Virus record (IMG/VR): IMGVR_UViG_3300010885_049206
Location: 1-21,315 of that record
Reading direction: 5' to 3' (one strand)
DNA length: 21,315 nucleotides
From: a virus
The position numbers were made by a program, and so were the translations under genes. The notes beneath the pieces are model-generated. The model worked only from the letters and a program-made list of their open reading frames with translations. It did no database searches and was not told the origin of the DNA. Below, one piece after another: positions 3,910 through 20,510 of this stretch. Positions within the stretch are counted from its first letter, which is position 1. The number at the start of each line of letters is the position of its first letter.

Positions 3910-3916
3910 ATACACC
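3910..3916 (-). promoter_or_regulatory. Candidate late promoter element (GGTGTAT) for the tail fibre
   Basis: The minus strand reads TAGGTGTATATAG, 36 bases before the fibre start and just after the stop of the 233-aa gene. It is one of five similar elements at nearly fixed distance from late gene starts. Promoter function is inferred from position and recurrence. Confidence 0.45.
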
Positions 3917-3925
3917 TATATTTTA

Positions 3926-4627
3926 TTAAATAGTTCCTCCATCAATACTACCAGAATTGGTCCACATAGACGAGGAACTATCATATTTTAATAAGTCTGT
4001 GTTTTTTTCATTATCAATGTCTATTCCATTTAATTCTTTTAATTTTGGATTTATAAATGGCCTAGTTAATATGCTTCCATTAATGTTGCTGTATAATATC
4101 AAACCAACTAAAATAATATTATATTTGGGTTTAACATTTGTCAGCTTTCCATAGTCATATCTATTTACATATAATATATCTCCATTAGACCATGATTCAT
4201 TTCCGATAGCCAAATTGCTTATATTTCCAGTAGTGTCTATTCCAGATAAAACCCCAAATAATATTACATATCCTGAAGATCCATTAGGAATATATGACGA
4301 TGATAATCCTAAAAATTTTTTTTCATTTAAAGTATTGTTTGCAATATATAGTCCAACATAAGGCAAATTACTAACAGAATCATATCCAGATATATAAACG
4401 GCCTGTCCTTTATTAATAGCATAGCCAGTATTGTTTTTAACCTCAAGAACATTTTCTGAAGATCCTATATATTTTAGATTATTCCAAGTATCACTACCAT
4501 TACCTATTTTGAGCTTATTAGTATCTATTTCAAATCCAAGTTCTCCAATAGACAAAATAGGATTTATTAACATCCATTCACTAGATGATCCTCTTCTTAC
4601 TTGAATCAAATGGCTTTGTGCAGGCAT
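3926..4627 (-). CDS. Tail/fibre-associated structural protein (233 aa)
   Basis: Residues 8-54 carry the pattern IQVRRGSSSEW, then NPILSIGELGFEIDT, then KIGNGSDTWNNLKY. This module is widespread near the N-terminus of phage tail-fibre and hyaluronidase-type proteins, where it packs into a baseplate or fibre trimer. The second half has NNTGYAINKGQAVYISG and GVLSGIDTTG, a pattern seen in other phage fibre-shaft or attachment proteins. The start ATG overlaps the stop of the upstream 108-aa gene (TAATG), indicating translational coupling. It lies between small tail proteins and the long fibre, so it is probably a fibre connector or short fibre. The exact role is not resolved; the family-level call is fairly sure. 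Confidence 0.72.
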   Translation of the reverse strand: MPAQSHLIQVRRGSSSEWMLINPILSIGELGFEIDTNKLKIGNGSDTWNNLKYIGSSENVLEVKNNTGYAINKGQAVYISGYDSVSNLPYVGLYIANNTLNEKKFLGLSSSYIPNGSSGYVILFGVLSGIDTTGNISNLAIGNESWSNGDILYVNRYDYGKLTNVKPKYNIILVGLILYSNINGSILTRPFINPKLKELNGIDIDNEKNTDLLKYDSSSSMWTNSGSIDGGTI

Positions 4628-4953
4628 TAGGGGCTTCCTCCGTCAATAAGAGCAGGCCCAACAAGAGTTATATGGTATTGTAAAATATGATTTTGCATAG
4701 AAGTGGTTGATGACTGATTAACATAATCTGTTAAGCCACTAACTCTAGTATAAGGAAGATCTCCGATAGTATTTTCTATAGGATATCCATAAGGCAAATC
4801 ACTAGCTAATATTTTTTCAGTATTAACTATGTTAATAGTGTTATTATATTGATGTTCAACTGTTATATTATCAGTAACAGTATCTAATATGCTTGTTTCT
4901 ATCTCAATAGTATTAGCTACTGGCTCTAAAATTTCAAGTATAAAATCACTCAT
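4627..4953 (-). CDS. Hypothetical tail-cluster protein (108 aa)
   Basis: This small acidic protein has no recognisable catalytic motif. Its N-terminal half is a run of alternating hydrophobic and polar residues (LEILEPVANTIEIE, then DNITVEHQYNN), suggesting beta strands. The C-terminal half has LPYTRVSGLTDYV and LQYHITLVGPALIDGGSP. The ATG directly follows the TAA of the 132-aa gene and its own stop overlaps the next start, so it is the middle of a tightly coupled three-gene set. Context suggests a minor tail, baseplate or fibre-attachment component. No independent ribosome site is obvious, which fits coupling to the upstream gene. Confidence 0.6.
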   Translation of the reverse strand: MSDFILEILEPVANTIEIETSILDTVTDNITVEHQYNNTINIVNTEKILASDLPYGYPIENTIGDLPYTRVSGLTDYVNQSSTTSMQNHILQYHITLVGPALIDGGSP

Positions 4954-5352
4954 TTAGCACACTAGTTGGTTTAAAGATTGACTAAATCGTTTAATAAAAG
5001 ATATTGTTCCAAATAATAATCTTATAGTATATTTTCCTCCACTAGCATATAAATCATCTGGGCTTTGTAATTCTAAATCATATTTAGCCATACTAAAAGT
5101 ATAAGTATTAGTGACTGATGCGGGAATCATAAGAGTTAATTTGCCATTAACTCCATCTATAGTAAATTTATATAAACTATAATCGGTATTTTTAGAGCTA
5201 AAAGTTTGAGAAGCATTAGTATTGGTTTTCCAGATTAATCGGGCACACCAATTAGTTAAATTTATAGGATTTCCATTAGAATCTTTATAAACTAGACTAA
5301 TTTTAAATGATGTACCTTGCTCTATAGCAAAATCATATTTACTTGCTGCCAT
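4954..5352 (-). CDS. Putative baseplate / fibre-connector protein (132 aa)
   Basis: The pattern is that of a small phage protein family resembling the N-terminal domain of baseplate upper proteins: YDFAIEQGTSFKISLVYKD near residues 6-24, then PINLTNWCARLIWK, a Gly-containing strand (GVNGKLTLMIPASVT), then KYDLELQSPD and YTIRLLFGTI near the end. Such proteins form a beta-sandwich that anchors fibres to the tail tip. It is the first gene after the capsid terminator and sits 36 bases behind a GGTGTAT element, so it probably starts a tail transcript. The ribosome site is weak. Function is assigned from motif resemblance and position, not from a match run here. Confidence 0.6.
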   Translation of the reverse strand: MAASKYDFAIEQGTSFKISLVYKDSNGNPINLTNWCARLIWKTNTNASQTFSSKNTDYSLYKFTIDGVNGKLTLMIPASVTNTYTFSMAKYDLELQSPDDLYASGGKYTIRLLFGTISFIKRFSQSLNQLVC

Positions 5353-5388
5353 AGTATTTACCCATTAGTGTTAGTGGTACAATAAGTA

Positions 5389-5395
5389 ATACACC
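5389..5395 (-). promoter_or_regulatory. Candidate late promoter element (GGTGTAT) for the tail gene set
   Basis: The minus strand reads ATTAGGTGTATTACT. It lies directly after the T-tract of the capsid terminator and 36 bases before the ATG of the 132-aa gene. A promoter is expected here because transcription from the capsid genes should stop just upstream. Confidence 0.5.
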
Positions 5396-5402
5396 TAATA
5401 AA

Positions 5403-5428
5403 AAAGGCCAGCCGTGAGGCCAGCCTTT
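5403..5428 (-). terminator. Rho-independent terminator after the major capsid gene
   Basis: On the minus strand an AAAGGC...GCCTTT stem with an inner GCC/GGC stem, separated by a two-base mismatch, closes a TCAC loop and is followed by a run of T. It begins about 30 bases after the capsid stop codon, the place where many phages stop high-level capsid transcription. Confidence 0.75.
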
Positions 5429-5459
5429 CTTATTTCGGTTATTAGAACCAGTTTAATAA

Positions 5460-6479
5460 TTAGAGAGCGCCAATAAGTACTCTACGATTATCAAGAACAG
5501 CAAAGCCAAGCTCTGCCCAGCCGTAGAAGCCGGCTCTCTTCTGACGATGTAGTGTTTCGTCTTCGAAGATTTGAACTTCTTGACGAATTGGCATTATGAA
5601 ACTGTCTCTCTTGCGTTGATCAAGACCAACTACCATCTCAGTCTTGCCTGCTGGCATTGAGGCACCTAGGCCACCAGAAGCAGAACTGTAGAATAGTTGA
5701 TACTGTTGACCAACACCTAGTTCGTCAAGGTCGTGAAGGTTAACGCCGAATACTCTATTGATGGCACCATCATTGGCAGTATAGATTTCTCTGCGTGTTA
5801 CCTCGTCAACTTGATCGATACCCCAGTTACGAATATCTTCCATAGCCTCTGGACTAACGTAAAGATCAGTTAGTAAGCCTCTATTGTTTGATGTGCTGTT
5901 ACCACCGCCGTTACGACGCATAACAGTTTTCATGAGACTCACTAAACGCTTTGTGAACTGACTAGCATTAGCATCACTATCATATACTACGATGTTGCGA
6001 TCAACACCAGCAGCGAGTAGTGTGTGCCAACCGTCATCATTCATCTTCTTTACGAAAGAAGCTTCGAGAACTTCCATAGCACGACCAACAACGTCCCAGC
6101 GGGCGTCACGAGCATACTTTAGAAGATAGTCGATACTAGCACCAACGTCATAGGTTGGAACCATGACGTAATCGCCTTCAACATGGCGCTCTGGAATGTA
6201 GCCATGATTTGGGATTGTATAGGCCACAAAGTCCTTCTCTGTGCCTGGAGCTAGGAAATCGAGTGGGAATTCTGGAGTGGCACTTTGAGCTAATTGAATT
6301 GGCTCGAAGATACCATCAAGAATATCACCACTAAGAATACCTCTACGAAGAGGAAGCTCAAGAGCTTTTGCAAACTCTGCATTAGCAGCAAGAGCGGTCT
6401 CTCTATTTGCCGAACCAGAACGCATTAGAAGGTCTGTTAGTTCTGGTGTTGGCTGAAATCTTTCGGTTTTAGCTGACAT
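5460..6479 (-). CDS. Major capsid protein (HK97-like fold expected)
   Basis: At 339 residues this is the usual size for a phage major capsid protein. Order supports the call: portal, protease-scaffold, decoration protein, then this gene. The C-terminal part has the pattern QEVQIFEDETLHRQKRAGFYGWAE followed by LGFAVLDNRRVL, found in major capsid proteins of many tailed phages. The N-terminal region (residues 1-45) is polar and helical and could be the processed or scaffold-contacting arm. A GGGAG ribosome site lies 8 bases before the ATG. Codon use is richer in C/G-ending codons than in the neighbouring tail genes, as expected for a highly expressed gene. A terminator follows. Confidence 0.9.
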   Translation of the reverse strand: MSAKTERFQPTPELTDLLMRSGSANRETALAANAEFAKALELPLRRGILSGDILDGIFEPIQLAQSATPEFPLDFLAPGTEKDFVAYTIPNHGYIPERHVEGDYVMVPTYDVGASIDYLLKYARDARWDVVGRAMEVLEASFVKKMNDDGWHTLLAAGVDRNIVVYDSDANASQFTKRLVSLMKTVMRRNGGGNSTSNNRGLLTDLYVSPEAMEDIRNWGIDQVDEVTRREIYTANDGAINRVFGVNLHDLDELGVGQQYQLFYSSASGGLGASMPAGKTEMVVGLDQRKRDSFIMPIRQEVQIFEDETLHRQKRAGFYGWAELGFAVLDNRRVLIGAL

Positions 6480-6508
6480 ATGTTTTTCTCCCTTTATTTA
6501 AAAATTAA

Positions 6509-6988
6509 TTATATGATGTTAACTGATACTTTGGCATAACCATCGGCGTCTTTGGCACTTAGGAACTGGCCAATCTTAACAGCGTTAGTTGAGCTTGTTC
6601 CAATTAGACCACTGACACCAACATAAGCATCAGCACCAGCAGATGGTGTTGTGCCTGAAACTAGTAGATTTGTGGTTACTTGACCTTGACGAAGTAGGGT
6701 GACCTTGCCACCAACTTGTGTTTCGTCTTTGTGCCAATTGATGTGTTGTCTTGTTAGATCAAGATTAACAACATCGTTTAGTAGAACGCCTACTGGCTTA
6801 GCGCCAGAAGCAACAGCAGCATATGCTACGACAGCATTGCCATCATCCATTGAAACGCCAACGCCGCTAGTAGCTGTTACAACACTAGCAACACCACCAC
6901 GCTCAACATAAGTTGAACCAGCTGGGATAGATGTCATGAAGAATGAAACGTCAGTTAAAAGTTCGATACGATCTGGTTTTAGAGCCAT
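6509..6988 (-). CDS. Capsid decoration / head-stabilisation protein (159 aa)
   Basis: This small Ala/Gly/Val-rich protein sits immediately upstream of the major capsid gene, the usual position of head decoration proteins. Internal motifs PVGVLLNDVVN (residues 65-75) and QHINWHKDETQVGGKVTLL (81-99), and the C-terminal GQFLSAKDADGYAKVSVN, recur in phage capsid-cementing or minor head proteins. It probably binds the outer capsid lattice. A GGAG ribosome site with 8-base spacing precedes the ATG. Codon use is similar to the capsid gene, so comparable high expression is likely. It could instead be a head-fibre component. Confidence 0.7.
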   Translation of the reverse strand: MALKPDRIELLTDVSFFMTSIPAGSTYVERGGVASVVTATSGVGVSMDDGNAVVAYAAVASGAKPVGVLLNDVVNLDLTRQHINWHKDETQVGGKVTLLRQGQVTTNLLVSGTTPSAGADAYVGVSGLIGTSSTNAVKIGQFLSAKDADGYAKVSVNII

Positions 6989-7022
6989 TGTAATTTCTCC
7001 GTATTTAGTTGGTTATTACTTA

Positions 7023-7739
7023 TTAGTTTTTCTTGCCTAGTTTACTTGATACAAATTCGACCAATGCTGCTCTAGTTGATTCTAGTGCAGATTCTACATC
7101 GCTACTGCCAACACCTAGATTAATATTAGCTTCAACCTCGGCTGTTTCTAATACCGATGGATCTGCTTCAACAAAAGATTTTTCTGATGCTGTTTTGCGC
7201 ATCATCATAGCATTATCTTCTTTTTTGTCTTCTTTATCTTGTTCTTCATCTTGCTTTTTAATCTTTTCTAACCAAGGTGGCATTTTTCCAGCAAAAAGAG
7301 AAGTCATGGCCTGGAAAGCCTCATCATCCAAACTTTCGAATTTGTCAACTGTTGCTTCGGCTGATTCACTATCAATGCCAGCCTCAATTAAATTGGCCAT
7401 TCTTTTCATCTTCTTTTCTTTCTTCATCATGGCCTCTTCTTTAGCAACGTATTCTGCGATAGTTGTAAGAGCAGCTTCTAATTCAGCCTTAGATTTCTTC
7501 ATCATATCTTCTTCTTTTTTCATCTGCTCTTCGGTCTTTTTAGCTGCTTCTGATTTGATTTGTTCAATTTCAGCTTGTAGTGCCTCGTTAGCAACAGTTA
7601 GCTCTTCAATTTTAGATGTTAATTCAGCAGCATTTACTTCAGCAACTTGAACTTCTTCTGTTGCTGTTTCTACTGCTACTTCTGCTACTGTTGGAACTTC
7701 TTTTGTTTCCATCTCTACTTCTGTATTAGCTGAACTCAT
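7023..7739 (-). CDS. Internal in-frame start: separate scaffold protein (238 aa)
   Basis: An ATG at 7739, codon 282 of the protease-scaffold gene and in the same frame, has a CGGAGA ribosome site about 9 bases upstream. Translation from here gives only the coiled-coil part (residues about 282-519), starting MSSANTEVEMETKEV. A GGTGTAT element lies 38 bases upstream, like those before other late genes, so it may also have its own transcript. The product would be free scaffold made in excess over the protease fusion, as with Nu3 inside lambda C. This is inferred from signals seen in the sequence. Confidence 0.6.
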   Translation of the reverse strand: MSSANTEVEMETKEVPTVAEVAVETATEEVQVAEVNAAELTSKIEELTVANEALQAEIEQIKSEAAKKTEEQMKKEEDMMKKSKAELEAALTTIAEYVAKEEAMMKKEKKMKRMANLIEAGIDSESAEATVDKFESLDDEAFQAMTSLFAGKMPPWLEKIKKQDEEQDKEDKKEDNAMMMRKTASEKSFVEADPSVLETAEVEANINLGVGSSDVESALESTRAALVEFVSSKLGKKN

Positions 7740-8582
7740 AATTAAAGTCTCCGATTGTATATTGGATTGAAAATTAAATACACCTGAATTGACAATTTCT
7801 TCATTTTTTTCTTCAATATTATCATTACTAGTAACTGTATTTACTGGAACTATTATATTTTTAGAAAAAATAACACTATCTTCATTAGCTGGTCTGTTCA
7901 CAAAACCCTTACCTGTAAAGGTTATATTTCTTAAAACTCGACCAATTTTATAGTTCTCATGTTCTCCTGCTCCGCCATAAGATCTTAAAAATTTTGTTAA
8001 ATATGCAGTATCTTCATTGCGTCCAAGAACATGATATTGACCAGTACTATTATCTAGTAGACCATAATCAAATCCCTTAAAAAAACATTCCATACTAACA
8101 TATTTAGTTCCGTCTTCTATTTCTGATATTAATTTCATGGATCTTTCGCGTAAATCTTCGTCGCTAAAACCCCTATATATAACTGATCCTGTTAAAATAT
8201 GATATTTCTCAGGAAGATTCTCTATTGGAGTATTTTCATCAATTAAAATACCATCTTCTGTGATGGGCCAATTAGAAACAATATGACCGATAATAGAGTG
8301 TTCGTCATGTTCAAGATTAGTAGGTTTATGCTCTGGAGTATTTTTAGCATTCCATACTTCTACTTTGTCAAAAATATCATCATTTTTATTCCAGGATGAC
8401 GAAACTAAAATAGATTGAACATAATATAGATCTTCATCATCAAACGACGCTATGCTTTTAAAGTATTTTGAATCTTTTTTGGAGCCGCCATATGGCTCAA
8501 CAACACAAGCATATGATATAGAAGCAGAGGCCTTAAGAGACTCCTCTAATCCATCAAGTTTTTCTTGCTCATATATTTTCAT
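7023..8582 (-). CDS. Prohead protease fused to scaffold protein
   Basis: The N-terminal ~240 residues look like a capsid maturation protease: EHDEHSIIGH (residues 91-100) offers candidate catalytic His residues, KYVSMEC (160-166) a candidate nucleophile Ser163, and VNRPANEDSVIF (228-239) is the motif that commonly closes such protease domains. From about residue 282 the sequence becomes a Glu/Lys/Ala-rich coiled coil with Met-Lys-Lys runs and ends in a short basic tail (SSKLGKKN), typical of scaffolding proteins. The protease would cut the scaffold and itself during head maturation. The fused layout resembles lambda C/Nu3. AAGG precedes the ATG. Catalytic residues are assigned by pattern, not by alignment. 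Confidence 0.8.
   Translation of the reverse strand: MKIYEQEKLDGLEESLKASASISYACVVEPYGGSKKDSKYFKSIASFDDEDLYYVQSILVSSSWNKNDDIFDKVEVWNAKNTPEHKPTNLEHDEHSIIGHIVSNWPITEDGILIDENTPIENLPEKYHILTGSVIYRGFSDEDLRERSMKLISEIEDGTKYVSMECFFKGFDYGLLDNSTGQYHVLGRNEDTAYLTKFLRSYGGAGEHENYKIGRVLRNITFTGKGFVNRPANEDSVIFSKNIIVPVNTVTSNDNIEEKNEEIVNSGVFNFQSNIQSETLIMSSANTEVEMETKEVPTVAEVAVETATEEVQVAEVNAAELTSKIEELTVANEALQAEIEQIKSEAAKKTEEQMKKEEDMMKKSKAELEAALTTIAEYVAKEEAMMKKEKKMKRMANLIEAGIDSESAEATVDKFESLDDEAFQAMTSLFAGKMPPWLEKIKKQDEEQDKEDKKEDNAMMMRKTASEKSFVEADPSVLETAEVEANINLGVGSSDVESALESTRAALVEFVSSKLGKKN
7778..7784 (-). promoter_or_regulatory. Candidate late promoter element (GGTGTAT) inside the protease gene
   Basis: The minus strand reads TTCAGGTGTATTTAAT, located within coding sequence but 38 bases before the internal scaffold start. 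The spacing matches the other copies (36-40 bases). Confidence 0.45.
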
Positions 8583-8604
8583 ATTATTTAACCTTTTATT
8601 TTGG

Positions 8605-10809
8605 TTAGTTATCTATTTCGTTATACACCATAGAATAAAAAGAGGCTTTTGCTTGTTTAGTTTCATCGACAGATAATTCTCTGCCAAGATCTGACTGTAG
8701 TGCTTTTAACCACATATAGTATTGATTAAGATTAGTACTATTATCTTGTGCAGATGCTAAGTGGCCGGTGATTGAGTCTTCTCCTATTGACGAAAATGGA
8801 CTAATAGATAATAATACATTGGTTTTAATATCTTCTAGTTTTTGTGATTCTAAATGACTCAAGCTTCTTAGGTTCTTCTTTTGAAAAAACTCTAATATAA
8901 TTGGATTAATTATTTCACTTATTTTATCTTGTGCTCCAGAAGCCCATAGTGATAGCTTTGCACCAGTTTGAGGAGAGAACTTTTTGGTTTGTCTTTTTTC
9001 ACTATCTTTAGATAATTTTGGGCGACCAGCTCCAGGCTGTTTTGGTAGCGAGGAATCTTTGGGTTGCGGTGCTCCTCCACCAAATGGAGTTGATGGAACC
9101 TTCATTTCTAATGCTGATTTTTCCCCACCTTTTTTCTTATCTAGTTCTAAACCAACTTGACTTGGGGCAACAACACCTATCTGTAAAGCAATCTTCTTAA
9201 GAGAATTTTCAAATTGTGGATCAAACCAAGGACCGGATTTAGCAACCATTCTATTGCTATCTCTTTCTCTGCTTTCTCTATTGAGCCTGCTCTTCTCCAT
9301 GTCAGGATCAAAGCCAAATCGAGTTTGTAATAATTCATCACTAATAAGATTACGATCTGCTAATTGAACTAATAAAGCTTTCTCGGTATCTTCATTACTA
9401 AGATCCATTCTATCAAATTCAATTTTAGCTGGAAATTTAAAACCCATAGCCTTCTGAACAATAGCAATTTCTTCTTCCCAGAATTCTATTAATCTATCTC
9501 TACCATACTGCAGTCTTTGAGTTAGTGTCTTTAAGCTAATAAAGTTATTTGTTGTCCCTGCTGCACCAAATGTTCCAGTTAATGTTGGTGGAATGCCCAA
9601 ACCAGCATATATTGCATTAAGGTGTGGAATATATTTACCTTCTCCCAAGAAATTATGAACATTAGTATTACTTTCCATTAATTCAATATCTGGTCCCCAA
9701 ATCAAATCCATAGTTCCTCCACCAACGTTATTACCAAGAATTTGGGCAAGCTTGGATGTTGCCGCTTTTGTTGGAGCAATCTTGTGTTCTAAGCTTCCTA
9801 ATTTAAAAATTCTAATATTACTAATAGCGCCATCAAGAGCCGCCATATCAGCTAATTTAAGCTTTTCCACAACTGTTATATCGTCCATGATTGCATAAAT
9901 CATAGGATATGCCCACGCTTGCCAATCGTCTTTTTTGTAGTGGAACACTAATGTCTTATCATGATCAAGAGGATATGGTTTTTTATTTTTAGCAGCTTCA
10001 ATTATTTGCGATGGCAAACTATTAACAACTTTTTTCTCATTTTCTGTTTTAGGATTATTGATAATTCTACGTAATGTTGCTGGTAGAATTAATTCATATG
10101 TTTTATCATTTTCATTTAAAAAAGAAGAAAGTGCTCCTGCTGATACCTCTACGCAAATAGGATCTATAAAAGTATACTTCCATGGGATTTCTCTTTTTTC
10201 TACAGTAACCTCTGGCAGATCATTCAGCTGCATATCTGCTGTTCCAAGGGCTTTATATAGTTTATCAGCAACTTTTATACTTATCTTTGCTGTTCGTCTA
10301 TCTATAACTATATTGCCACTCTTATAAAGATTATTAAGAAATCTTTCACTACGATCCTTGCCATTTATTTTTTTAAACCATCTTCTATAAAATCTTTCTA
10401 TTCTTTTATTTCTATGAACTAATCGTATTCCTTGACTAGCAAAATCACCCATAAGATCTATTACATTTTTTACTAAGCCTACTCTTTGGTAAACTCTTTC
10501 TGCTCTTTGCAAGATCATTTTGATCTCGTTAGGAGGAGCTTCTTGTGGTCTAAATGTATAGTAATCGTCTTTTGTTAATCCTGGGCGACTTCCAGTAAGA
10601 CCGTCTAAACTAGAAAAATCAAGACTATATCTTCTTCCTCCTGCGGCAGTTGCTCTTTCTACCAGAGTAAATTCATCTAGTGATGCTCCAGCAGTTTTTA
10701 AGGCTTCTTGTTTGCTAGATAAATCGTCCCCCCATGTTACATAAGCTTCTGGTGGTGCAGTGTTGGCTGTTCCTAGTACTTCCTCTTTTGTTCTTTTTTT
10801 ATTGGCCAT
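8605..10809 (-). CDS. Portal protein
   Basis: This 734-residue protein sits between the large terminase and the head protease, the standard portal position. Residues 403-455 (GIPPTLTGTFG, then LKTLTQRLQYGRDRLIEFWEEEI) are typical of portals: a ligand-like loop followed by the long stem helix and an amphipathic helix. The middle has HKTLVFHYKKDDWQAWAYP-like beta-strand and crown-connecting segments, here with a Lys-rich patch. The C-terminal third is Pro/Gly/Lys-rich and then helical, probably the barrel or crown. It forms the dodecameric DNA channel at one capsid vertex. The ribosome site is weak, but an AGTGTAT element lies 50 bases upstream. No frame disruption was seen. Confidence 0.82.
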   Translation of the reverse strand: MANKKRTKEEVLGTANTAPPEAYVTWGDDLSSKQEALKTAGASLDEFTLVERATAAGGRRYSLDFSSLDGLTGSRPGLTKDDYYTFRPQEAPPNEIKMILQRAERVYQRVGLVKNVIDLMGDFASQGIRLVHRNKRIERFYRRWFKKINGKDRSERFLNNLYKSGNIVIDRRTAKISIKVADKLYKALGTADMQLNDLPEVTVEKREIPWKYTFIDPICVEVSAGALSSFLNENDKTYELILPATLRRIINNPKTENEKKVVNSLPSQIIEAAKNKKPYPLDHDKTLVFHYKKDDWQAWAYPMIYAIMDDITVVEKLKLADMAALDGAISNIRIFKLGSLEHKIAPTKAATSKLAQILGNNVGGGTMDLIWGPDIELMESNTNVHNFLGEGKYIPHLNAIYAGLGIPPTLTGTFGAAGTTNNFISLKTLTQRLQYGRDRLIEFWEEEIAIVQKAMGFKFPAKIEFDRMDLSNEDTEKALLVQLADRNLISDELLQTRFGFDPDMEKSRLNRESRERDSNRMVAKSGPWFDPQFENSLKKIALQIGVVAPSQVGLELDKKKGGEKSALEMKVPSTPFGGGAPQPKDSSLPKQPGAGRPKLSKDSEKRQTKKFSPQTGAKLSLWASGAQDKISEIINPIILEFFQKKNLRSLSHLESQKLEDIKTNVLLSISPFSSIGEDSITGHLASAQDNSTNLNQYYMWLKALQSDLGRELSVDETKQAKASFYSMVYNEIDN
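8623..8629 (-). promoter_or_regulatory. Candidate late promoter element (GGTGTAT) for protease-scaffold
   Basis: The minus strand reads TATGGTGTATAACG inside the last codons of the portal gene, 40 bases before the protease ATG. It belongs to the same motif family as four other sites in the late region. Confidence 0.4.
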
Positions 10810-10859
10810 AATTTTTAATTCTAATGTAATGGGATTGTAAAGAGATTACTAGATTAGTA

Positions 10860-10866
10860 ATACACT
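10860..10866 (-). promoter_or_regulatory. Candidate late promoter element (AGTGTAT) for the portal
   Basis: The minus strand reads AAAGTGTATTACT just past the terminase stop and 50 bases before the portal ATG. It is one base off the GGTGTAT form and more distant than the other copies, so it is less certain. Confidence 0.33.
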
Positions 10867-12891
10867 TTATCTATAAATTCCTGTATATACGTCATCATTT
10901 GCTCCGTTAACGAACCATTCTGGTCCTTTATACATATTTCCGTTATTTTTAACTGAATCCTTAGCATTGGCTCCTATTATATCATAATCAACTGGTTTTA
11001 AGGCTTTATTAAGTTGTCTAGCTAACATATTTGCTATTATTAAAGAACTATATCGGTCTTTTCTTAGTCTTCCTTTTTTACCATGGCCAAGCTTAGTTTC
11101 TGGGGTATCCCATCGATCTCTAGCATTTGGGCCTTGACTAGTTTGTGACATAACTATTGTTGTCAATTCATTTTTTAATTCTTCTATTTCTAAAATACAT
11201 TCACTTACGCTATCATATAAGGGATTAAGATCTGCTTCTAATATACTCTTGCCTTCTCTTTCAATGGCTAGTCCCAAGGTTAAATTATCAAATGCTGGAA
11301 ATAATAACGCTTTATCCTCTAGGTCTTTTCTTAAACCGTGGTTAGCTTGACTTGTCCATTCTGCTTTTGCAAACTGAATCAATTCTAAAATATGTAATCC
11401 TGGCTGATCGTCTGTGTCTTTGCTTTTATCATCTATTGTCGGCCAAATTAAAACCTCTCCTTCTTCGAGCTTATTTGGGTCGTGTAGTGATTCTTCAATA
11501 GCGACACCACCACCTTGAGCATCCATTCCTATTTTAATTGGCTTAAAGGTTTTCATTAGATTTCTAATTTTACGAGTACAGAAACCATAGAAATCATGTT
11601 CCGTTATTAATCCAGTTTTTTGACGCTCTTTAAAATTAGCTCTATTAGTAGTCCAGCAATACACGATCTTGGAATGCGTAGGATTTACTTCTAATATAAC
11701 TATACTAAAATTATCTTGTTCACTCGCAGGATCGATACCATATACATATTCTTTATTAGCATCTCCTCTTGTGATAGCATCAAACATTACAGGTTTTCCA
11801 TCAATCAAAATTTGAGTATTTGATACCACACAGCTTTCAATTAAACTTCGTCTAAAGAATCCTTCGCTATCTTTCACAAAACAAGCGGCATACTCCATAT
11901 TATAGATACCAGTATGTATGGTAGCCTTAGCACGACTTACTTGTTTGTCATCCATAAATCCTTTTGGAATAAGCTCATAAGGAATACGAATGATACTATA
12001 GTCTTTCCAATTAAAACTATCAGGAACTTCTCCTTTAAATATATCTTCAAGTTTTCTCTTTTCTCCTTTGCTTTCTATTATTGCTTTGTATCTTTTCCAA
12101 TAACTAGCAAAGTGTTTAAAATCATAATCTGCTGTTCCACTAATTATTGCTTGATTACCCATTTTAGTATTTAGTACTTCAAGTTCTTCATTCCATATTC
12201 CTGCTTCAATCATTGCTTGTTTTTTAGCTTCTTCTTTAACATTTTGAATAGGGCTGGCAGATACCGCAGCGAATCCAGACACTACTGTTTCATAAATATC
12301 TGGCGATATAGATGCAAATTCGTCAGCAATAATAATGTGTGCGCGTAAACCTCTGATCTTGCTTCCATCTCCCATGGGAATAGCAATTGTCCAACTGTCT
12401 CCTAATCTTATAGTACATCTATCAACATCTCGTCGCGGACCATCATCATTACCATTAAAAATACTTCTTAATATAGGACTACTACGCCAAATAGTTTCCA
12501 TATATTCAAAGATGATTTTACTTTGACGAAACGCAGCACCAACTACTACAATTTTAGTACCAGGACAAAATGTGCATTTTATAACACAATATAAAGCTAA
12601 TAGGAATGACTTACCCCAACCGCGACTAGCGATATACATTGGAAATGGTCGTATCCAAAACTCTTGTAATATTAAAATTTGCATAGGATGTAATTCAATA
12701 TTGAATAAAAGCTTCACCATGCTTCCAATATACTTTGGATCTTTTAAAACTTTCATTAAATGCAAATCAGGAAGTTCAATATCTCTCTCTGATCTATTAA
12801 TCATCACATTCTTTGTTAATTTTATTTTATTTATATCGCCCAGATCTAACCAAGCATCATCAAATGATATTCTATTTTTAGATTCACTCAT
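10867..12891 (-). CDS. terL: Terminase large subunit
   Basis: This is the ATP-driven DNA packaging motor and cutting enzyme. In the ATPase half, SRGWGKS (residues 89-95) is a Walker A-like loop and IIIADEF (186-192) is Walker B with the catalytic Glu. In the nuclease half, YGIDPASEQ near 382, IGMDAQGGG near 456 and KDRYSSLIIAN near 613 supply the three acidic positions expected of an RNase H-like nuclease. Its length of 674 is at the upper end of the family, without a visible intein. Its ATG overlaps the stop of the ERCC4-like gene by 8 bases. A weak ribosome site suggests coupling. The portal follows, as usual. Confidence 0.93.
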   Translation of the reverse strand: MSESKNRISFDDAWLDLGDINKIKLTKNVMINRSERDIELPDLHLMKVLKDPKYIGSMVKLLFNIELHPMQILILQEFWIRPFPMYIASRGWGKSFLLALYCVIKCTFCPGTKIVVVGAAFRQSKIIFEYMETIWRSSPILRSIFNGNDDGPRRDVDRCTIRLGDSWTIAIPMGDGSKIRGLRAHIIIADEFASISPDIYETVVSGFAAVSASPIQNVKEEAKKQAMIEAGIWNEELEVLNTKMGNQAIISGTADYDFKHFASYWKRYKAIIESKGEKRKLEDIFKGEVPDSFNWKDYSIIRIPYELIPKGFMDDKQVSRAKATIHTGIYNMEYAACFVKDSEGFFRRSLIESCVVSNTQILIDGKPVMFDAITRGDANKEYVYGIDPASEQDNFSIVILEVNPTHSKIVYCWTTNRANFKERQKTGLITEHDFYGFCTRKIRNLMKTFKPIKIGMDAQGGGVAIEESLHDPNKLEEGEVLIWPTIDDKSKDTDDQPGLHILELIQFAKAEWTSQANHGLRKDLEDKALLFPAFDNLTLGLAIEREGKSILEADLNPLYDSVSECILEIEELKNELTTIVMSQTSQGPNARDRWDTPETKLGHGKKGRLRKDRYSSLIIANMLARQLNKALKPVDYDIIGANAKDSVKNNGNMYKGPEWFVNGANDDVYTGIYR

Positions 12892-13369: not shown

Positions 13370-13634
13370 ATTTTTTATTCTGTTTTATAATATTGTAAAA
13401 AACGGCCTCATAATAAGTTTCTACACCAGTAATCATTTTATGATGATCTTTACAAAGAGTGATTCCGTTGTCTACTTCAAATCGTAGTCCCGGACAATCT
13501 GCCCAGCGACGAATATGATGAGCATTCAATTTTTTCTTACTAGAACATCCTGGCCACTGACAAGTATGGTGGTCTCTTGCATAAATTTTGTTTCTCCATT
13601 TTTTATATTCTGGATCATTAAAATTCCTAACCAT
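13359..13634 (-). CDS. HNH endonuclease (91 aa)
   Basis: The ATG at 13634 (MVRNFNDPEY) is preferred because it overlaps the upstream gmd stop by only 8 bases. The frame stays open to an earlier ATG at 13670, which would add a hydrophobic 12-residue extension. Zinc ligands Cys25/Cys30 (CQWPGC) pair with Cys61 and His64 (CKDHH), and the HNH core is His39-His40, Asn56 and His64/65. The protein probably nicks or cuts DNA. HNH proteins beside terminases help packaging-linked DNA cutting in phages such as HK97; here the gene lies two genes upstream of terL in the same operon, so that role or a homing role are both possible. Confidence 0.85.
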   Translation of the reverse strand: MVRNFNDPEYKKWRNKIYARDHHTCQWPGCSSKKKLNAHHIRRWADCPGLRFEVDNGITLCKDHHKMITGVETYYEAVFYNIIKQNKKYDK

Positions 13635-14625
13635 GACCACATAGTTCAATATCAGAACTAACCATATCATGAACTAGTTGTTGAAATGTAATTTTAGGAA
13701 TCCAATTTAGAACCTTTTTAGCTTTACTACAATCCCCTTTAAGATATCCAACTTCAGCCGGTCTATAAAGAGACGGATCAATTGTCACATAATCCCTATA
13801 ATCTTTATTAACAAAGGAAAATGATTCTATTAAGAAGTTTTCAACGGTTTGGGCTTGTCCGGTACTTATAACAAAATCATCAGCTTTATCTTGAGATAAC
13901 ATTAATCTCATAGCTTCAACATAATCTTTAGCATGTCCCCAGTCTCTTACTGCATTAATATTTCCAAGTTTTAGTTTTTCGTTAGGTTCTAGTTTGTTAT
14001 TAACTAGTCGCCCAATATATTTGGTTATTTTTCGCGTAACAAAGTTTTCGCCACGACGAGGACTTTCATGATTAAATAGTATGCCGCTACAAGCATATAA
14101 ATTATAAGCTTCCCTATATATTTGAACCATTCGGTGACTAGCAAGTTTGGCTACAGCGTATGGACTTTGTGGTAAAAGGGATGTTTCTTCGTTTTGATAT
14201 TTATTACCATCAGAGTCAATTGAATAATTTCGCCCAAACATTTCGCTGGTACTTGCTTGATAAAATCGTGTTGTGCTGCTAAATTTTCTAATATTTTCTA
14301 AGATGTTAATTACTCCCACAGCATCAATTTCGAATGTGGTGGTTGGCTGTTTAAAACTTGTGGCCACATGACTCTGGGCCGCCAGATTATAAAATTCTTT
14401 GGGGCGATGCTTGGTTATCATATCTGTACAGTCACTAGGATCAGTAAGATCAAATTCTTCCAGTATCAATCGTGGATGATTAACTATGTTTTTAATACGT
14501 TCAAAATTCACTGAACTGGTTCGTCGGTATAATCCAACAACTCCGTATCCTTTTTGTAAAAGACTTTCTGCCAGATAACTTCCGTCTTGGCCAGTTATGC
14601 CCGTAATAATTGCTGTTTTACTCAT
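13627..14625 (-). CDS. gmd: GDP-mannose 4,6-dehydratase (332 aa)
   Basis: This short-chain dehydratase converts GDP-mannose to GDP-4-keto-6-deoxymannose, the precursor of GDP-fucose, GDP-rhamnose and related sugars. It has the NADP-binding GITGQDG (residues 9-15), the catalytic set T126, E128, Y156, K160 (STSE and YAVAK), and the signature NHESPRRGENFVTRKI (185-200). The C-terminus has YRPAEVGYLKGD and KKVLNW. The ATG at 14625 starts the conserved MSKTAIITG and overlaps the upstream stop by 8 bases; a GTG four codons earlier is less likely. Its place between terminase subunits makes it a cargo gene in a packaging operon, probably altering host or phage glycans. No partner reductase is visible. 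Confidence 0.93.
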   Translation of the reverse strand: MSKTAIITGITGQDGSYLAESLLQKGYGVVGLYRRTSSVNFERIKNIVNHPRLILEEFDLTDPSDCTDMITKHRPKEFYNLAAQSHVATSFKQPTTTFEIDAVGVINILENIRKFSSTTRFYQASTSEMFGRNYSIDSDGNKYQNEETSLLPQSPYAVAKLASHRMVQIYREAYNLYACSGILFNHESPRRGENFVTRKITKYIGRLVNNKLEPNEKLKLGNINAVRDWGHAKDYVEAMRLMLSQDKADDFVISTGQAQTVENFLIESFSFVNKDYRDYVTIDPSLYRPAEVGYLKGDCSKAKKVLNWIPKITFQQLVHDMVSSDIELCGHG

Positions 14626-15439
14626 TGTTATTAACACTCTCTGAGTTTAAGAATGGTTTGTCTACTGTGCCGTCCTGATAATTATGATAATCATAAAGTT
14701 TCTGCTTAACCTTCCCTGCTGCCATGCTGAGAATCTCCATTTCTCTTCCTTCTTTTTCTCTTATTTCTTCATCCTCTAGCATTCGTATTAATCCTGTCCA
14801 ACTGCTTTTTCCGTCTTCAATTCTTTTGATTCGTTGCTCTCTGGTGGCCTTAAGATCTTTGCTTATTTTTTGCTGTTCGTTAAGCAATTTGGTATATTCA
14901 TTAGTATAATTTGCGATACTATTTCTTGCAAAGCTGAGTTGAGTTTCCAAGTTGGCCAATTTGGGTATGTCTCTTTCAACTTCTGGTTTAGCATAAATTT
15001 CATCCACCATTCGTTGAAGCTTTTCAGTTTCGCTAATGTGACGTTTTCGCTCTTTCATGCTTCGGTTAATAAGAATATCAATAGTTATAAACTGTTTGAT
15101 CTGAAGTTCTTCGGCCGGAAGAACGTCTTCTCTAAACTGCTTGACCAGATTAATCCATGTGCTTTCAAAGTATTCTAATTCGCCGCTATCACTATCAAAC
15201 TGACGAGTAATTTCTGGCCAAAACGTTTTAGTATGAAGTTTCTGGCTAAGTATCTGATTATCATTACTGCTATTCATAACAGACAATTGATTTTCATTAA
15301 CATATCGTTGTACTGGACCAACTGTTCTATTAAGATAGTCAGCAATTTGTTGCAGGGAGGATGATGTGTAATTATCTCTTATGTATTTTTCTTCATCAAG
15401 GCTTAGTTGTCCTCTTTTTCTGGGAGCATTGTTTTCCAA
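14618..15439 (-). CDS. Probable terminase small subunit (TTG start)
   Basis: This 273-residue protein begins at a TTG that is preceded by a perfect GGAGG ribosome site with 7-base spacing. The next in-frame Met is 54 codons on and would remove the conserved-looking N-terminus, so TTG is favoured. Residues about 12-50 (LSLDEEKYIRDNYTS, then LQQIADYLNRTVGPVQRYV) form a helix-turn-helix suitable for DNA-end recognition. Residues about 130-230 are highly charged and helical, likely a coiled-coil oligomerisation region. Small terminases share little sequence, so the call rests on architecture plus position upstream of terL in the same operon. A different DNA-binding packaging factor remains possible. 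Confidence 0.6.
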   Translation of the reverse strand: MENNAPRKRGQLSLDEEKYIRDNYTSSSLQQIADYLNRTVGPVQRYVNENQLSVMNSSNDNQILSQKLHTKTFWPEITRQFDSDSGELEYFESTWINLVKQFREDVLPAEELQIKQFITIDILINRSMKERKRHISETEKLQRMVDEIYAKPEVERDIPKLANLETQLSFARNSIANYTNEYTKLLNEQQKISKDLKATREQRIKRIEDGKSSWTGLIRMLEDEEIREKEGREMEILSMAAGKVKQKLYDYHNYQDGTVDKPFLNSESVNNNE

Positions 15440-16228: not shown

Positions 16229-16259
16229 ATTATAGTATGTTTTGGAGCGAGATTGTCAA
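16229..16259 (-). promoter_or_regulatory. Sigma-70 promoter for the leftward packaging operon
   Basis: On the minus strand a perfect TTGACA (16254-16259) is followed after 19 bases by a perfect TATAAT (16229-16234). The spacer is two bases longer than ideal. The start site should be near 16222, giving a leader of about 25 bases with an AAGGA site before the 54-aa gene. Confidence 0.75.
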
Positions 16260-16658: not shown

Positions 16659-16964
16659 ATGAAAATTTTTATGTTGTTAGTTTGTGGATTGTTTTGTTGT
16701 GCTGGAAATAACATTTATGGATGTGAATGGATAAGAGCAAGAAATGTTCAGCCAGTTTATGTTCCTGTTCAGCAGTTTCAACCAGCAATATCATGGTCTT
16801 ATGTTCAACAAAATTCTATTAGCTATGTTCCAACAGTGGTTTATCAGCCTGTAGTAAATACTCAAATAGTACCTGTTCCAACAGTAATTTATCCGGTTTA
16901 TCCAGTTTATAGTCCTGTTCCGACTGCTCCTTATTTCTATGGATATAATGTTTATAGATACTAG
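16659..16964 (+). CDS. Secreted Val/Pro/Tyr-rich protein of unknown function (101 aa)
   Basis: The N-terminus is a signal peptide: MK, a hydrophobic core LLVCGLFCCAG and a polar end near residue 20. The lipobox is not convincing, so export rather than lipidation is assumed. The mature part is low in charge and built from repeated short Val/Pro/Tyr segments (VQPVYVPVQQF, YVPTVVYQPVV, VPTVIYPVYPVYSPVP), ending NVYRY. Such sequences tend to be extended and sticky surface or periplasmic proteins. AGGAG lies 7 bases before the ATG and a TATAAT promoter upstream. A secreted, monocistronic phage gene next to the early region suggests a moron acting on the host envelope, for example superinfection exclusion; this is inference only. 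Confidence 0.7.
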   Translation: MKIFMLLVCGLFCCAGNNIYGCEWIRARNVQPVYVPVQQFQPAISWSYVQQNSISYVPTVVYQPVVNTQIVPVPTVIYPVYPVYSPVPTAPYFYGYNVYRY

Positions 16965-17188: not shown

Positions 17189-17287
17189 GTCCTTATTGTT
17201 TTTGCACCACCCGCGAGGTACGGCGATTTTCTAAACCCCTTGATATAAAACGAAAAAACCCCCTCTTGCTCTAAAGTGTTGTGGGAT

Positions 17288-17383
17288 AAGACTTTACGAC
17301 GAGTGGCAGATGCAAGGGTTGTGCCAAACTCTTGTGAGATAAGGACTTAGAGCACCTTACGATATTTTAAGGAAACTTTTTGC
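17288..17383 (+). repeat. Promoter-associated intergenic repeat, copy 1
   Basis: Ordered conserved boxes are AAGACTTTACGACGA (17288-17302), AAACTCTTGTG (17326-17336), ATAAGGACTTA (17339-17349), CCTTACGAT and TTTTAAGGAAACTTTTTGC, ending directly before the -35 box. A clear hairpin around the first box is not seen here, unlike copies 3-5. Copy 2 at 18126 is its closest relative. Confidence 0.75.
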
Positions 17384-17411
17384 TTGACGCTCAAGATAGG
17401 TTTGGTATAAT
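17384..17411 (+). promoter_or_regulatory. Sigma-70-type promoter (TTGACG/TATAAT)
   Basis: TTGACG (17384-17389), a 16-base spacer and TATAAT (17406-17411) end with TGTCGATAT, a downstream segment shared with the promoter at 19877. The expected start site at about 17418 leaves almost no leader before the first usable ATG. Confidence 0.75.
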
Positions 17412-17426
17412 GTCGATATGAGAAAC

Positions 17427-17642
17427 ATGATGATCTTCAACACGATGAACGAGTTGGTTGGTTTCCTGAGCAGTGCCGATTCTGCTACTTTGGTTAACGT
17501 TGCAGCGTTTGGAATGGATCTTCTGGATCTTGCTCGTAGCAACGAAAACGAAATCGAAATCGGTGAGGATGGCGGATTCATCCGAATCGACGAAATGGGT
17601 TACGTTGTGGAAGAGTTTGCGATTGACAACGTTCGCGAATGA
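17427..17642 (+). CDS. Small acidic early protein (71 aa)
   Basis: The product MMIFNTMNELVGFLSSAD... has a helical N-terminal half (LVNVAAFGMDLLDLARSNENEIEI) and an acidic C-terminal half with GEDGGFIRIDEMGYVVEEF, which looks like a small beta hairpin. There are three Arg and no Lys, so it is strongly negative. The frame also opens at an ATG at 17418, but that lies at the predicted transcription start, so 17427 or the next ATG is chosen; either way the leader is nearly absent and no ribosome site is visible. Its last codons contain the -35 box of the next promoter. The function is unknown. Confidence 0.65.
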   Translation: MMIFNTMNELVGFLSSADSATLVNVAAFGMDLLDLARSNENEIEIGEDGGFIRIDEMGYVVEEFAIDNVRE

Positions 17643-17651
17643 TGATAGAAT
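17623..17651 (+). promoter_or_regulatory. Sigma-70-type promoter overlapping the previous gene's end
   Basis: TTGACA (17623-17628) within the codons for Ile-Asp-Asn, a 17-base spacer and TAGAAT (17646-17651) just after the stop at 17640-17642. Confidence 0.7.
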
Positions 17652-17677
17652 AGCAACACAAGAAAGAGAGAAAGAAT

Positions 17678-17872
17678 ATGACGATCAACACCGAAATCAC
17701 TACAACCTATAACGGCAAGCGGTATACGGGATTTATCGTGGAAAGCAAGACGATAAAGAATCGTGAAATGATCACGATCATGATCAAGGATGATACGCGA
17801 AATGATGGTATTGGCTATCGTAACCTGTATGTTGATATGATGAGCCAAACTTCTGAAAATCTTTTTGCTTGA
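17678..17872 (+). CDS. Small hypothetical early protein (64 aa)
   Basis: MTINTEITTTYNGKRYTGFIVE... reads as a compact beta-rich domain: a GKRYTGFI strand, a turn, MITIMIKDDT, then YRNLYVDMM. The order GKxYxGxI, charged turn, ITxxI, aromatic strand is shared with the next gene (17924), suggesting an ancient duplication or a common small fold. A purine-rich AGAAAGAGAGAAAG stretch before the ATG serves as a loose ribosome site. It has its own promoter, and its stop codon TGA is part of the next promoter's TTGACA. No known family is recognised. A regulator or host-protein binder is the default guess for such early genes. Confidence 0.65.
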   Translation: MTINTEITTTYNGKRYTGFIVESKTIKNREMITIMIKDDTRNDGIGYRNLYVDMMSQTSENLFA

Positions 17873-17896
17873 CAAAGAAAAAAGTTTCTGTAGAAT
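17869..17896 (+). promoter_or_regulatory. Sigma-70-type promoter (TTGACA/TAGAAT) overlapping a stop codon
   Basis: TTGACA (17869-17874) contains the TGA stop of the 64-aa gene; a 16-base spacer leads to TAGAAT (17891-17896). The preceding CTTTTTGC matches the sequence before the promoters at 17384 and 18221. Confidence 0.75.
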
Positions 17897-17923
17897 ACAT
17901 TCATCATCACCAAGGGAAATCAA

Positions 17924-18112
17924 ATGAACGATCTGAAGAGTCTTTTTCTTGCGATGGCTTCTGGTAAGTATGCTGGATTCCGAGATACTAAGGGTAAGGG
18001 ATATATCGGAATCATTAACGGTATCATGCGTGAGGATGGTAGTGGTCGTAACTGGATCATTACTGTGACTGAGGGAATCAAAACAAGTAAGGTTTTTATC
18101 CACGCAACGTAA
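17924..18112 (+). CDS. Small hypothetical early protein (62 aa)
   Basis: MNDLKSLFLAMASGKYAGFRD... begins with an amphipathic helix, followed by KGKGYIGIINGIMRED, GRNWIITVTEG and KTSKVFIHAT, probably four beta strands. The pattern resembles the preceding 64-aa protein, so the two may be distant paralogues. AGGGA lies 6 bases before the ATG and the gene has its own TTGACA/TAGAAT promoter. It is followed by the second promoter-associated repeat, whose hairpin could end the transcript. It is basic overall, unlike the acidic gene two places upstream. The function is unknown. Confidence 0.68.
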   Translation: MNDLKSLFLAMASGKYAGFRDTKGKGYIGIINGIMREDGSGRNWIITVTEGIKTSKVFIHAT

Positions 18113-18125
18113 GCCCAATAACCAC

Positions 18126-18220
18126 AAGACTTTACGTCGAGTGGGGGCATAGAGGGACGATCTAAACTCTTGTGCCATAACGACTTACGAACCTTACGAT
18201 CTTTTAAGGAAACTTTTTGC
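18126..18220 (+). repeat. Promoter-associated intergenic repeat, copy 2
   Basis: Boxes AAGACTTTACGTCGA (18126-18140), AAACTCTTGTG (18164-18174), ATAACGACTTA (18177-18187), then CCTTACGATCTTTTAAGG and AACTTTTTGC align with copy 1. GCCC/CCAC segments just upstream can pair with GTGG/GGGC after the first box. Confidence 0.75.
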
Positions 18221-18248
18221 TTGATCTCTAAACAATACCCTGTATAAT
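18221..18248 (+). promoter_or_regulatory. Sigma-70-type promoter (TTGATC/TATAAT)
   Basis: TTGATC (18221-18226), a 16-base spacer and TATAAT (18243-18248), followed by GACGATATAAGAG, closely like the start regions at 17412 and 19906. Confidence 0.75.
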
Positions 18249-18275
18249 GACGATATAAGAGAAAGAGGAAACAAA

Positions 18276-18491
18276 ATGATCTCCAACGAAATCAAAAATG
18301 CTTTACGTCAGATTTGGGGTAGCGAAACGTATAACGTGGTGCTACTGTATACGGCAGACGGTAAACTGTTTGCTGAGTGTGAGGCGACGAATGACCGGCG
18401 ACGGATCACGGAAAGCAACTACGAAGAAATGCTGAACGATATGTTCTATAACTTCTGTATGGAAAAGGCATCTTGGATGGGCGTCTCATGA
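18276..18491 (+). CDS. Small hypothetical early protein (71 aa)
   Basis: MISNEIKNALRQIWGSETYNVVLLYTADGKLFAECEATNDRRRITESNYEEMLNDMFYNF... folds plausibly as a helix, a beta hairpin (VVLLYTADGKLFAECE) and a C-terminal helix. AGAGGAAACAAA precedes the ATG and supplies the ribosome site. The gene stands alone between a repeat-linked promoter and a small C/G hairpin that leads straight into the next promoter. The ending KASWMGVS is short and uncharged. No known family is recognised; size, place and expression signals all match the early small-gene block. Confidence 0.68.
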   Translation: MISNEIKNALRQIWGSETYNVVLLYTADGKLFAECEATNDRRRITESNYEEMLNDMFYNFCMEKASWMGVS

Positions 18492-18492
18492 C

Positions 18493-18507
18493 CCCCTACT
18501 AGAGGGG
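18493..18507 (+). terminator. Small C/G hairpin between genes
   Basis: CCCCT (18493-18497) pairs with AGGGG (18503-18507) around ACTAG, directly after the stop and directly before TTGACA. There is no T-tract, so termination is uncertain; it could set the edge of the promoter. Confidence 0.3.
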
Positions 18508-18536
18508 TTGACAAGATAAAAAACTTTCTGTAAAAT
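18508..18536 (+). promoter_or_regulatory. Sigma-70-type promoter (TTGACA/TAAAAT)
   Basis: TTGACA (18508-18513), a 17-base spacer and TAAAAT (18531-18536). The spacer end and downstream part (TTTCTG, then TTCATCACCAAG) match the promoter at 17869, so the two are related copies. Confidence 0.7.
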
Positions 18537-18563
18537 ACGTTCATCACCAAGAGGAAAAAGAAA

Positions 18564-18893
18564 ATGGCTACCAAGTTCAAGATTATCGAAGATGCCAAGA
18601 TTCAGGTTCGGTTGTGCTTTCTCGGCATGGCAACGCGGCATCAGCCATCACTTGCCGATGGATTGTACGGCCCGATCCACAGTGAAAAGGTTCACAAGTT
18701 CAATCGCAAGGCTCTCCGCAAGGGAAGCAAGAGCAAGGCTGAAAAGGCCGACCCCCGCTACAATGGGGGTGAGGATCTTATGATTCTAAAGGTGGGCAAG
18801 CCCGGCTCGGCCGAACGTAAGGAAGCACTGGCACAACAGTATGCGGCCATTCTGGCCTGTGGAGAGGAAGTCTCCCCCTTCGCGGAGGGGTGA
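18564..18893 (+). CDS. Basic hypothetical protein (109 aa)
   Basis: The longest of the early block. It opens MATKFKIIEDAKIQVRLCFLG, continues with HQPSLADGLYGPIHSEKVHKF, then a strongly basic part (NRKALRKGSKSKAEKADPRYN) and a short C-terminal helix (SAERKEALAQQYAAILACG). The Lys/Arg cluster suggests nucleic-acid or host-polymerase contact, but no named fold is recognised. GAGGA with a suitable spacing precedes the ATG. Codon use is notably G/C richer than in the left arm. The stop codon follows a CCCCTT/GAGGGG hairpin formed by the last codons (18875-18890). Confidence 0.68.
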   Translation: MATKFKIIEDAKIQVRLCFLGMATRHQPSLADGLYGPIHSEKVHKFNRKALRKGSKSKAEKADPRYNGGEDLMILKVGKPGSAERKEALAQQYAAILACGEEVSPFAEG

Positions 18894-18926
18894 CATCCGT
18901 ACACTAATCGCAAAGCGTTACGGCGT

Positions 18927-19031
18927 AAGACTTTACGACGAACGCGGCCGCCACCGTTTGACGTAAACTCTTATCCGTCAACGAGTTGCGAACCTTGCGG
19001 TATTGTAAGGAAAAATATTCACGATACCCCC
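18927..19031 (+). repeat. Promoter-associated intergenic repeat, copy 3
   Basis: Box AAGACTTTACGACGA (18927-18941) sits in a hairpin (GCGTT at 18915-18919 with AACGC at 18941-18945, plus an inner CGTAA/TTACG stem). It is followed by GGCCGCC, TTTGACGTAAACTCTT, and TTGTAAGG before the -35 box. Confidence 0.7.
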
Positions 19032-19059
19032 TTGCATTAGCCGATATTGTCTGTATAAT
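19032..19059 (+). promoter_or_regulatory. Sigma-70-type promoter (TTGCAT/TATAAT)
   Basis: TTGCAT (19032-19037), a 16-base spacer and TATAAT (19054-19059) preceded by TCTG as in several neighbours. Its predicted start near 19066 rules out the ATGs at 19063-19066 as efficient starts. Confidence 0.68.
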
Positions 19060-19098
19060 CGTGGCATGATGATCGCCACCACCAACGGAGAGCATAAG

Positions 19099-19514: not shown

Positions 19515-19516
19515 AT

Positions 19517-19729: not shown

Positions 19730-19772
19730 GGAAATATCGATTCAGTATCTGATTCGCAAGAGTTGACCTAAA

Positions 19773-20503: not shown

Positions 20504-20510
20504 ACCTAAA

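Follow-up and report, generated by a model that had tools for sequence, protein, structure and literature searches.

Analysis of a 21,315-base IMG/VR virus fragment (record IMGVR_UViG_3300010885_049206, which holds no sequence beyond this stretch, hereafter the window) indicated that a short motif, RGTGTA(T), stands in one orientation ahead of the late genes and probably serves as the sole element of their promoters. In this reading, to which we assign a probability of about 0.82 from sequence comparison, the host RNA polymerase carrying a phage-encoded sigma factor would recognise the motif as an extended -10 type of promoter. The evidence comes from the position and strand of the motif in the window, its conservation in two clades of relatives, its maintenance inside coding frames, and a divergent sigma gene in the same genomes.

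A strand-specific motif ahead of late genes

Five copies of the motif precede late genes of the window (Table 1), and the first-pass annotation, which had proposed them as a phage late promoter, was correct in all five sites and in their distances to the gene starts. The further minus-strand GTGTAT sites that it had mentioned proved to be an RGTGTAT inside the fibre gene (2805-2811) and a CGTGTAT (11660-11665). The window holds six RGTGTAT copies, all on the minus (late-gene) strand, and none on the plus strand. This raw count equals chance (six against a shuffle mean of 6.00), an outcome that the annotation had set against a promoter and that suits a view of the motif as an AT-rich 7-mer that happens to precede five genes. 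However, position and strand are not random, as four of the six copies lie 30-60 nucleotides (nt) ahead of one of the 14 minus-strand starts (binomial p = 1.6e-7 on both strands; p = 8e-6 for the minus-strand arm alone). The information therefore lies in position and strand, and the window count alone would have rejected the finding wrongly.

We gathered 158 distinct late-gene loci by capsid and TerL searches, 82 loci of a clade B that is distant from the window's own clade (clade A) and has a capsid ~65% identical, and four whole relatives of 175-244 kb for an unbiased ranking of 7-mers; altogether, the retrieved relatives are hundreds of contigs of uncultivated aquatic phages with genomes up to 244 kb. 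In the late-gene loci, GGTGTAT occurs 442 times in the forward and 28 times in the reverse orientation, clustering 30-70 nt ahead of gene starts. The form RGTGTA[TCA] is found ahead of the portal gene in 75 of 86 distinct upstream regions (2.1 in shuffles), ahead of the 132-amino-acid (132-aa) gene in 62 of 78 (2.4), and ahead of the protease gene in 73 of 89 (2.4). Ahead of the major capsid, decoration, TerL, TerS-like, GDP-mannose dehydratase, and sigma genes, it occurs in 0-1 of 51-80 regions each. Close to a gene start lie 79 of its 351 copies, versus 15.4 for random positions. Across hundreds of relatives, the sites are kept ahead of the same structural operons, with drifting spacing and flanks.

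When all 7-mers upstream of genes were ranked in the four whole relatives, GGTGTAT came first (43/109 copies, z = 18), and it also ranked first among 140 permutations of itself; the second class was CTTGACA, a host-type early promoter sequence. The targets in whole relatives include the portal, protease, tail, fibre, tube-like protein, serine protease, and holin-like protein genes. For the fibre gene, no orthologous starts passed the filter behind the counts by gene, but in relative G001 a fibre-like gene (46% identical) carries AGTGTAT 52 nt ahead of its start, measured from the 5' end of the motif to the start codon. In clade B, a search made without presupposing a motif returned GTGTATA and TGTGTAT as the top 7-mers upstream of genes (z > 50), which gave the logo TTTGTGTATAAT along with a T 13 nt past the first G. 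This element precedes the same genes as in clade A (portal 47/57, protease 55/73) and is absent ahead of decoration, capsid, and TerL. In 58 of the 82 loci, it also lies 40-100 nt past the stop codon of the capsid gene. With a positional p of ~1e-7 in the window, orthologue counts far above those in shuffles, and a top-ranked 7-mer in the unbiased scans of two clades, a chance origin of the motif is ruled out by the relatives and was rejected.

The logo of 182 non-redundant intergenic clade-A sites is wRGTGTAT, in which RGTGTA forms an invariant core and position seven is occupied by T in 86% of sites and otherwise by A or C. The consensus first given, GGTGTAT or AGTGTAT, thus holds for its core and was slightly too strict at the seventh base. 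No -35 box was seen in the logo sites of either clade, bearing out the earlier remark that TTGACA does not accompany the motif. A weak T-A bump follows in clade A (T then A, 13-14 nt past the first invariant G in the 182 sites), at the distance where transcripts would be expected to begin. One copy had been placed just behind the capsid terminator, and the 5389 site indeed lies ~15 nt past the stem (5425-5410); a T-rich tract also stands ahead of the motif in orthologues. The terminator sets the capsid operon apart from the putative late promoter that follows. Strand, gene proximity, conservation, terminator position, the missing -35 box, and the T-A bump all argue for the late promoter reading.

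The same features bear on the possibility that the motif, rather than being a core promoter, binds a MotA-like phage activator or acts at the RNA level as a processing or translation signal. The motif does sit in the 5' region ahead of the ribosome site, and the gene at 14618-15439 has, by eye, a putative DNA-binding N-terminus, and phages do use such activators. However, a -10 element would account for the constant distance between the motif and an initiator-like T-A bump, which is kept in two clades although their flanks differ. An activated promoter would require a -10 further downstream, and no conserved second element was found there; no known RNA family is present in the window. In addition, this 273-aa gene resembles a small terminase (TerS) by position and may be one. 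We therefore regard an activator or RNA signal as quite unlikely and favour a core promoter element.

Table 1. Coordinates of the putative late promoter elements and associated features in the window.
Feature	Position	Strand	Context
Late promoter element GGTGTAT	3910..3916	minus	Context TATAGGTGTATATAG; 36 nt ahead of fibre gene (start 3873)
Late promoter element GGTGTAT	5389..5395	minus	36 nt ahead of 132-aa gene (start 5352), right behind capsid terminator
Intrinsic terminator, stem-loop and TTTTTT	5410..5425	minus	After major capsid gene; from terminator scan; sequence GGCTGGCCTCACGGCTGGCCTTTTTT
Nested in-frame scaffold open reading frame	7023..7739	minus	C-terminal part of 519-aa protease-scaffold gene (7023-8582), with a GGAG Shine-Dalgarno and an ATG of its own
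Nested late promoter element GGTGTAT	7778..7784	minus	Within protease frame, 38 nt ahead of scaffold start 7739
Late promoter element GGTGTAT	8623..8629	minus	Overlaps portal 3' end; 40 nt ahead of protease-scaffold gene (start 8582)
Late promoter element AGTGTAT	10860..10866	minus	Directly after TerL stop; 50 nt ahead of portal gene (start 10809)
Phage sigma, 219 aa	15403..16062	minus	Sigma-70 region 2 at ~residues 17-86; candidate motif reader
Host sigma-70 type promoter TTGACA-16-TACTAT	16232..16259	minus	Upstream of sigma gene; 10/12 consensus match

Motif sites inside coding frames and a putative nested scaffold gene

Of the five sites, two fall in coding sequence, one at the portal C-terminus and one in the interior of the protease gene, and they thereby allow a strict test. 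All 61 portal genes whose proteins end in ..MVY.. use GTG for the valine, versus a background GTG share among Val codons of 0.07, indicating selection at the DNA level for the motif. A comparable synonymous-site preference is seen at the nested site, which is read in frame as GGT GTA T..: GGT is used in 67 of 74 sequences (background 0.41) and GTA in 68 of 74 (background 0.34), and the peptide around these codons varies. The nested in-frame GGAG-ATG is present in 87 of 87 orthologues, with RGTGTA[TCA] ~45-51 nt ahead of the ATG.

Taken from these comparisons, the nested gene appears to be a scaffold with its own late promoter inside the protease frame. Its identity and that of the protease are suggested by position and by charged, coiled sequence; searches found no family match for either. 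The TerS label is likewise a positional assignment. In lambda C/Nu3, too, translation of the scaffold begins in frame at a start codon inside the protease gene. Here, the internal start is in addition preceded by a conserved late promoter element of its own that still lies within the coding frame, which would be a clear case of a promoter maintained within a gene. Clade B showed no such nested promoter for the scaffold.

A divergent phage sigma factor as the candidate reader

The first-pass annotation had attributed the motif to a modified polymerase. A special form of the polymerase does fit, and the proposal can be sharpened to the host polymerase with the phage sigma factor listed in Table 1, which the annotation had not named. 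Homologues of this protein were found in 13 of 13 near relatives searched and in 18 of 20 clade B records; a search of 50,697 phage records with the window protein gave no match at E 1. The Pfam model Sigma70_r2 (PF04542) matches all 43 aligned clade-A members (best 7e-6) and all 16 clade-B members, the first of which scores 29.7 bits, above the gathering threshold of 24. A profile search of the PDB matched Staphylococcus aureus sigma-B (E 0.003); with the single sequence of the window protein as query, the PDB gave noise. In a Foldseek comparison of the AlphaFold model with the PDB, the top 50 matches were all sigma factors, the best domain being the N-terminal part or region 2 of SigE (probability 1.00). 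We accordingly place the protein in the sigma-70 family by region 2 homology, as judged from profile and fold comparison.

None of the Pfam models of region 4, the part that recognises -35 boxes, matches in any of the 59 members; full-length members of the family have this region, and sigma factors of the gp55 and gp36 types lack it. The three C-terminal helices could represent a degenerate region 4, the TIGR02937 match reaching residue 178. Four cysteines (C94, C97, C111, and C120), located just after region 2 and before the C-terminal helices, are invariant in clade A and lacking in clade B, and the insert that carries them is possibly metal-binding. The equivalent of region 2.4 also differs between the clades (RPLENFLWTHVRNRLFNYKR versus RPLENFLSVHLSNRLKNFVR), and the outer bases of the motif seem to have changed in step with it. 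Upstream of the sigma operon, 47 of 52 regions in relatives score at least 10/12 against the host sigma-70 consensus, versus 20 of 260 control stretches; this conserved promoter is mostly TTGACA/T-16-TATTAT, ~174-206 nt upstream.

Searches for a polymerase of the phages' own were negative in 12 relatives of 175-244 kb, both for a multi-subunit enzyme (Rpb2, PF00562; 14/14 controls positive) and for a T7-type enzyme (PF00940; T7 control positive), with the limits that the records may be incomplete and that highly divergent subunits would escape. A host polymerase could also read the motif with its own housekeeping or alternative sigma factor as an extended -10, the phage protein then having another role. 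A promoter with an extended -10 can do without a -35 box, and the clade B sequence TTGTGTATAAT includes TATAAT, as this explanation would have it. However, the early promoters of the same genomes carry both TTGACA and TATAAT, clade A keeps only the TAT of the hexamer with the classical TGn spacing off by one (GTG-TAT), the flanks of the motif differ between clades in step with the diverged region 2.4, and the motif-bearing genes are mostly structural and of lysis type. Reading by a host sigma alone is thus improbable, if somewhat less so than an activator site, and recognition by the phage sigma is preferred.

Several observations weigh against recognition of a late promoter by the phage sigma. 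The exact motif is missing from 12-20% of orthologous upstream regions; most of the motif-free regions that were inspected by eye hold one-base variants such as GGTGTAC and GGTGTAA. Some targets are non-structural (PhoH, one ribonucleotide reductase, and HNH genes), so the promoter class may be middle plus late. The sigma assignment depends on a divergent region 2: the window protein alone matches PF04542 at E 2e-4 and 21.6 bits, under the gathering threshold, the AlphaFold model is of moderate quality (mean pLDDT ~70, with region 2 mostly 80-90), and the Foldseek E-values are no better than 0.011. Finally, the sigma and the motif are linked by co-occurrence in one lineage, and another phage factor could read the motif.

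Known systems, proposed late programme, and neighbouring genes

Comparison with phage phiEco32 (Kuravirus) revealed close parallels in promoter form. Its gp36 is a sigma factor without region 4 that was shown experimentally to use a single element, tAATGTAtA, with transcription starting 6-8 bp downstream (PMC8948821), and the sigma gene is first expressed from host sigma-70 promoters (PMC8948821, PMC4331800). The present phages likewise encode a sigma without recognisable region 4 behind a host sigma-70 promoter and have single-element promoters; the core TGTA is common to tAATGTAtA and wRGTGTATw, with G as the third base here and A in phiEco32, and the start would lie 8-9 bp downstream here. 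The two systems differ in genome size (175-244 kb versus 78 kb) and in the nested internal promoter found here. Homology of gp36 to the window sigma was not supported (hhalign E 0.0095, probability 4%; 1% in a second comparison), with no relation detected between the two beyond region 2, and phiEco32 was not among the matches listed for TerL, capsid, and sigma in searches of phage collections. The TerL of the window has distant matches only among the 50,697 phage records.

As with T4 gp55, a small region-2-type phage sigma appears to act here on one -10 element without a -35 box ahead of structural genes. With clade B added, hhalign against 12 gp55 homologues gave a weak match with region 2 in register (E 9e-4, probability 23%); for clade A alone, the single-sequence comparison gave nothing and the family comparison 0.9%. 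The gp55 structure 7d7c_F is among the Foldseek matches. The relation to gp55 is suggestive only, falling short of significance by profile probability, and membership of the sigma in either the gp55 or the gp36 family could not be demonstrated. Unlike the T4 late promoter TATAAATA, the element here is RGTGTA(T) or the clade B form, and the cysteine insert of clade A is extra. In clade B, the T4 sequence is about equally frequent on the two strands (74 versus 67). There is no sign of clamp-coupled transcription as in T4 in 12 relatives, where neither the T4-type sliding clamp (PF02916, searched without a positive control) nor the bacterial clamp (PF02767) was found. Microcystis phage Ma-LMM01 offers a contrast, with a reported sigma-70-only programme. 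With one -10-like element, no -35 box, strand specificity, and structural operons as targets, the system described here would belong with the single-element late promoters read by phage sigma factors. The literature searches made for this motif in phages found no description of it.

A transcription programme can be proposed on this basis. Early in infection, the host housekeeping sigma would transcribe the right-arm genes from TTGACA...TATAAT promoters and the sigma-gene operon from its conserved TTGACA-16-TATTAT promoter. The phage sigma would then join the host core RNA polymerase, and transcription would start ~8-9 bases downstream of GTGTAT at the portal, the protease, the nested scaffold (followed by decoration and capsid), the tail gene, and the fibre. 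Taking the initiator-like bump as positions -1 to +1 would put the invariant T-A of GTGTAT near -12/-11. Through the nested promoter in the protease gene, scaffold, decoration, and capsid would be produced in larger amounts than protease, and the terminator-promoter pair after the capsid gene would reset the output for the tail genes.

In a wider sense, we lean slightly towards the view that a large group of uncultivated aquatic phages runs a private late switch. Its sigma would stand outside the gp55 and gp36 families and carry a clade-specific four-cysteine insert by the helix that reads the -10 element; the motif would have changed from R-GTGTA to TTT-GTGTATAAT as region 2.4 diverged (e.g., F80 to K and R76 to S), and one clade would over-produce scaffold and capsid from a promoter inside the protease frame. 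How phage sigma factors turn on late genes has been worked out for a handful of phages in culture, and the pair proposed here would be a new one in two natural dialects, which make -10 recognition testable by sequence comparison and by part swaps in vitro. RGTGTA ahead of a gene could also serve as a marker to predict late operons in phages without a cultured host.

From right to left, the minus strand of the window encodes the sigma-like gene, the 273-aa gene, GDP-mannose dehydratase, HNH, an ERCC4 nuclease, TerL, and portal, followed by the protease-scaffold, decoration, and major capsid genes, the terminator, the 132-aa and 108-aa genes, a tropism-determinant-like protein, and the long fibre. 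The GDP-mannose 4,6-dehydratase is full length (13627-14637, minus; PF16363 E 5e-112) and lies within the packaging operon; homologues are present in related loci of both clades, an odd neighbour for terminase genes. Capsid searches of genome collections also matched five contigs of metagenome-assembled genomes (L217-L221) with the conflicting labels Alphaproteobacteria, Flavobacteriales, Chitinophagia, and SAR202. These contigs are probably mis-binned phage, so no host was assigned from them.

The right arm consists of numerous tiny plus-strand genes with TTGACA/TATAAT promoters in front. Among its products is a 101-aa secreted-looking protein (16659-16964, plus) with VPVQ/YQPV/VPTV repeats and a signal-peptide-like start. 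An 83-nt intergenic block without an Rfam match occurs five times among these genes (17269-20586, plus; spacing 738-858 nt). The blocks are mostly followed by a promoter of the TTGACA/TATAAT type and are possibly a repeated terminator or leader separating early transcription units.

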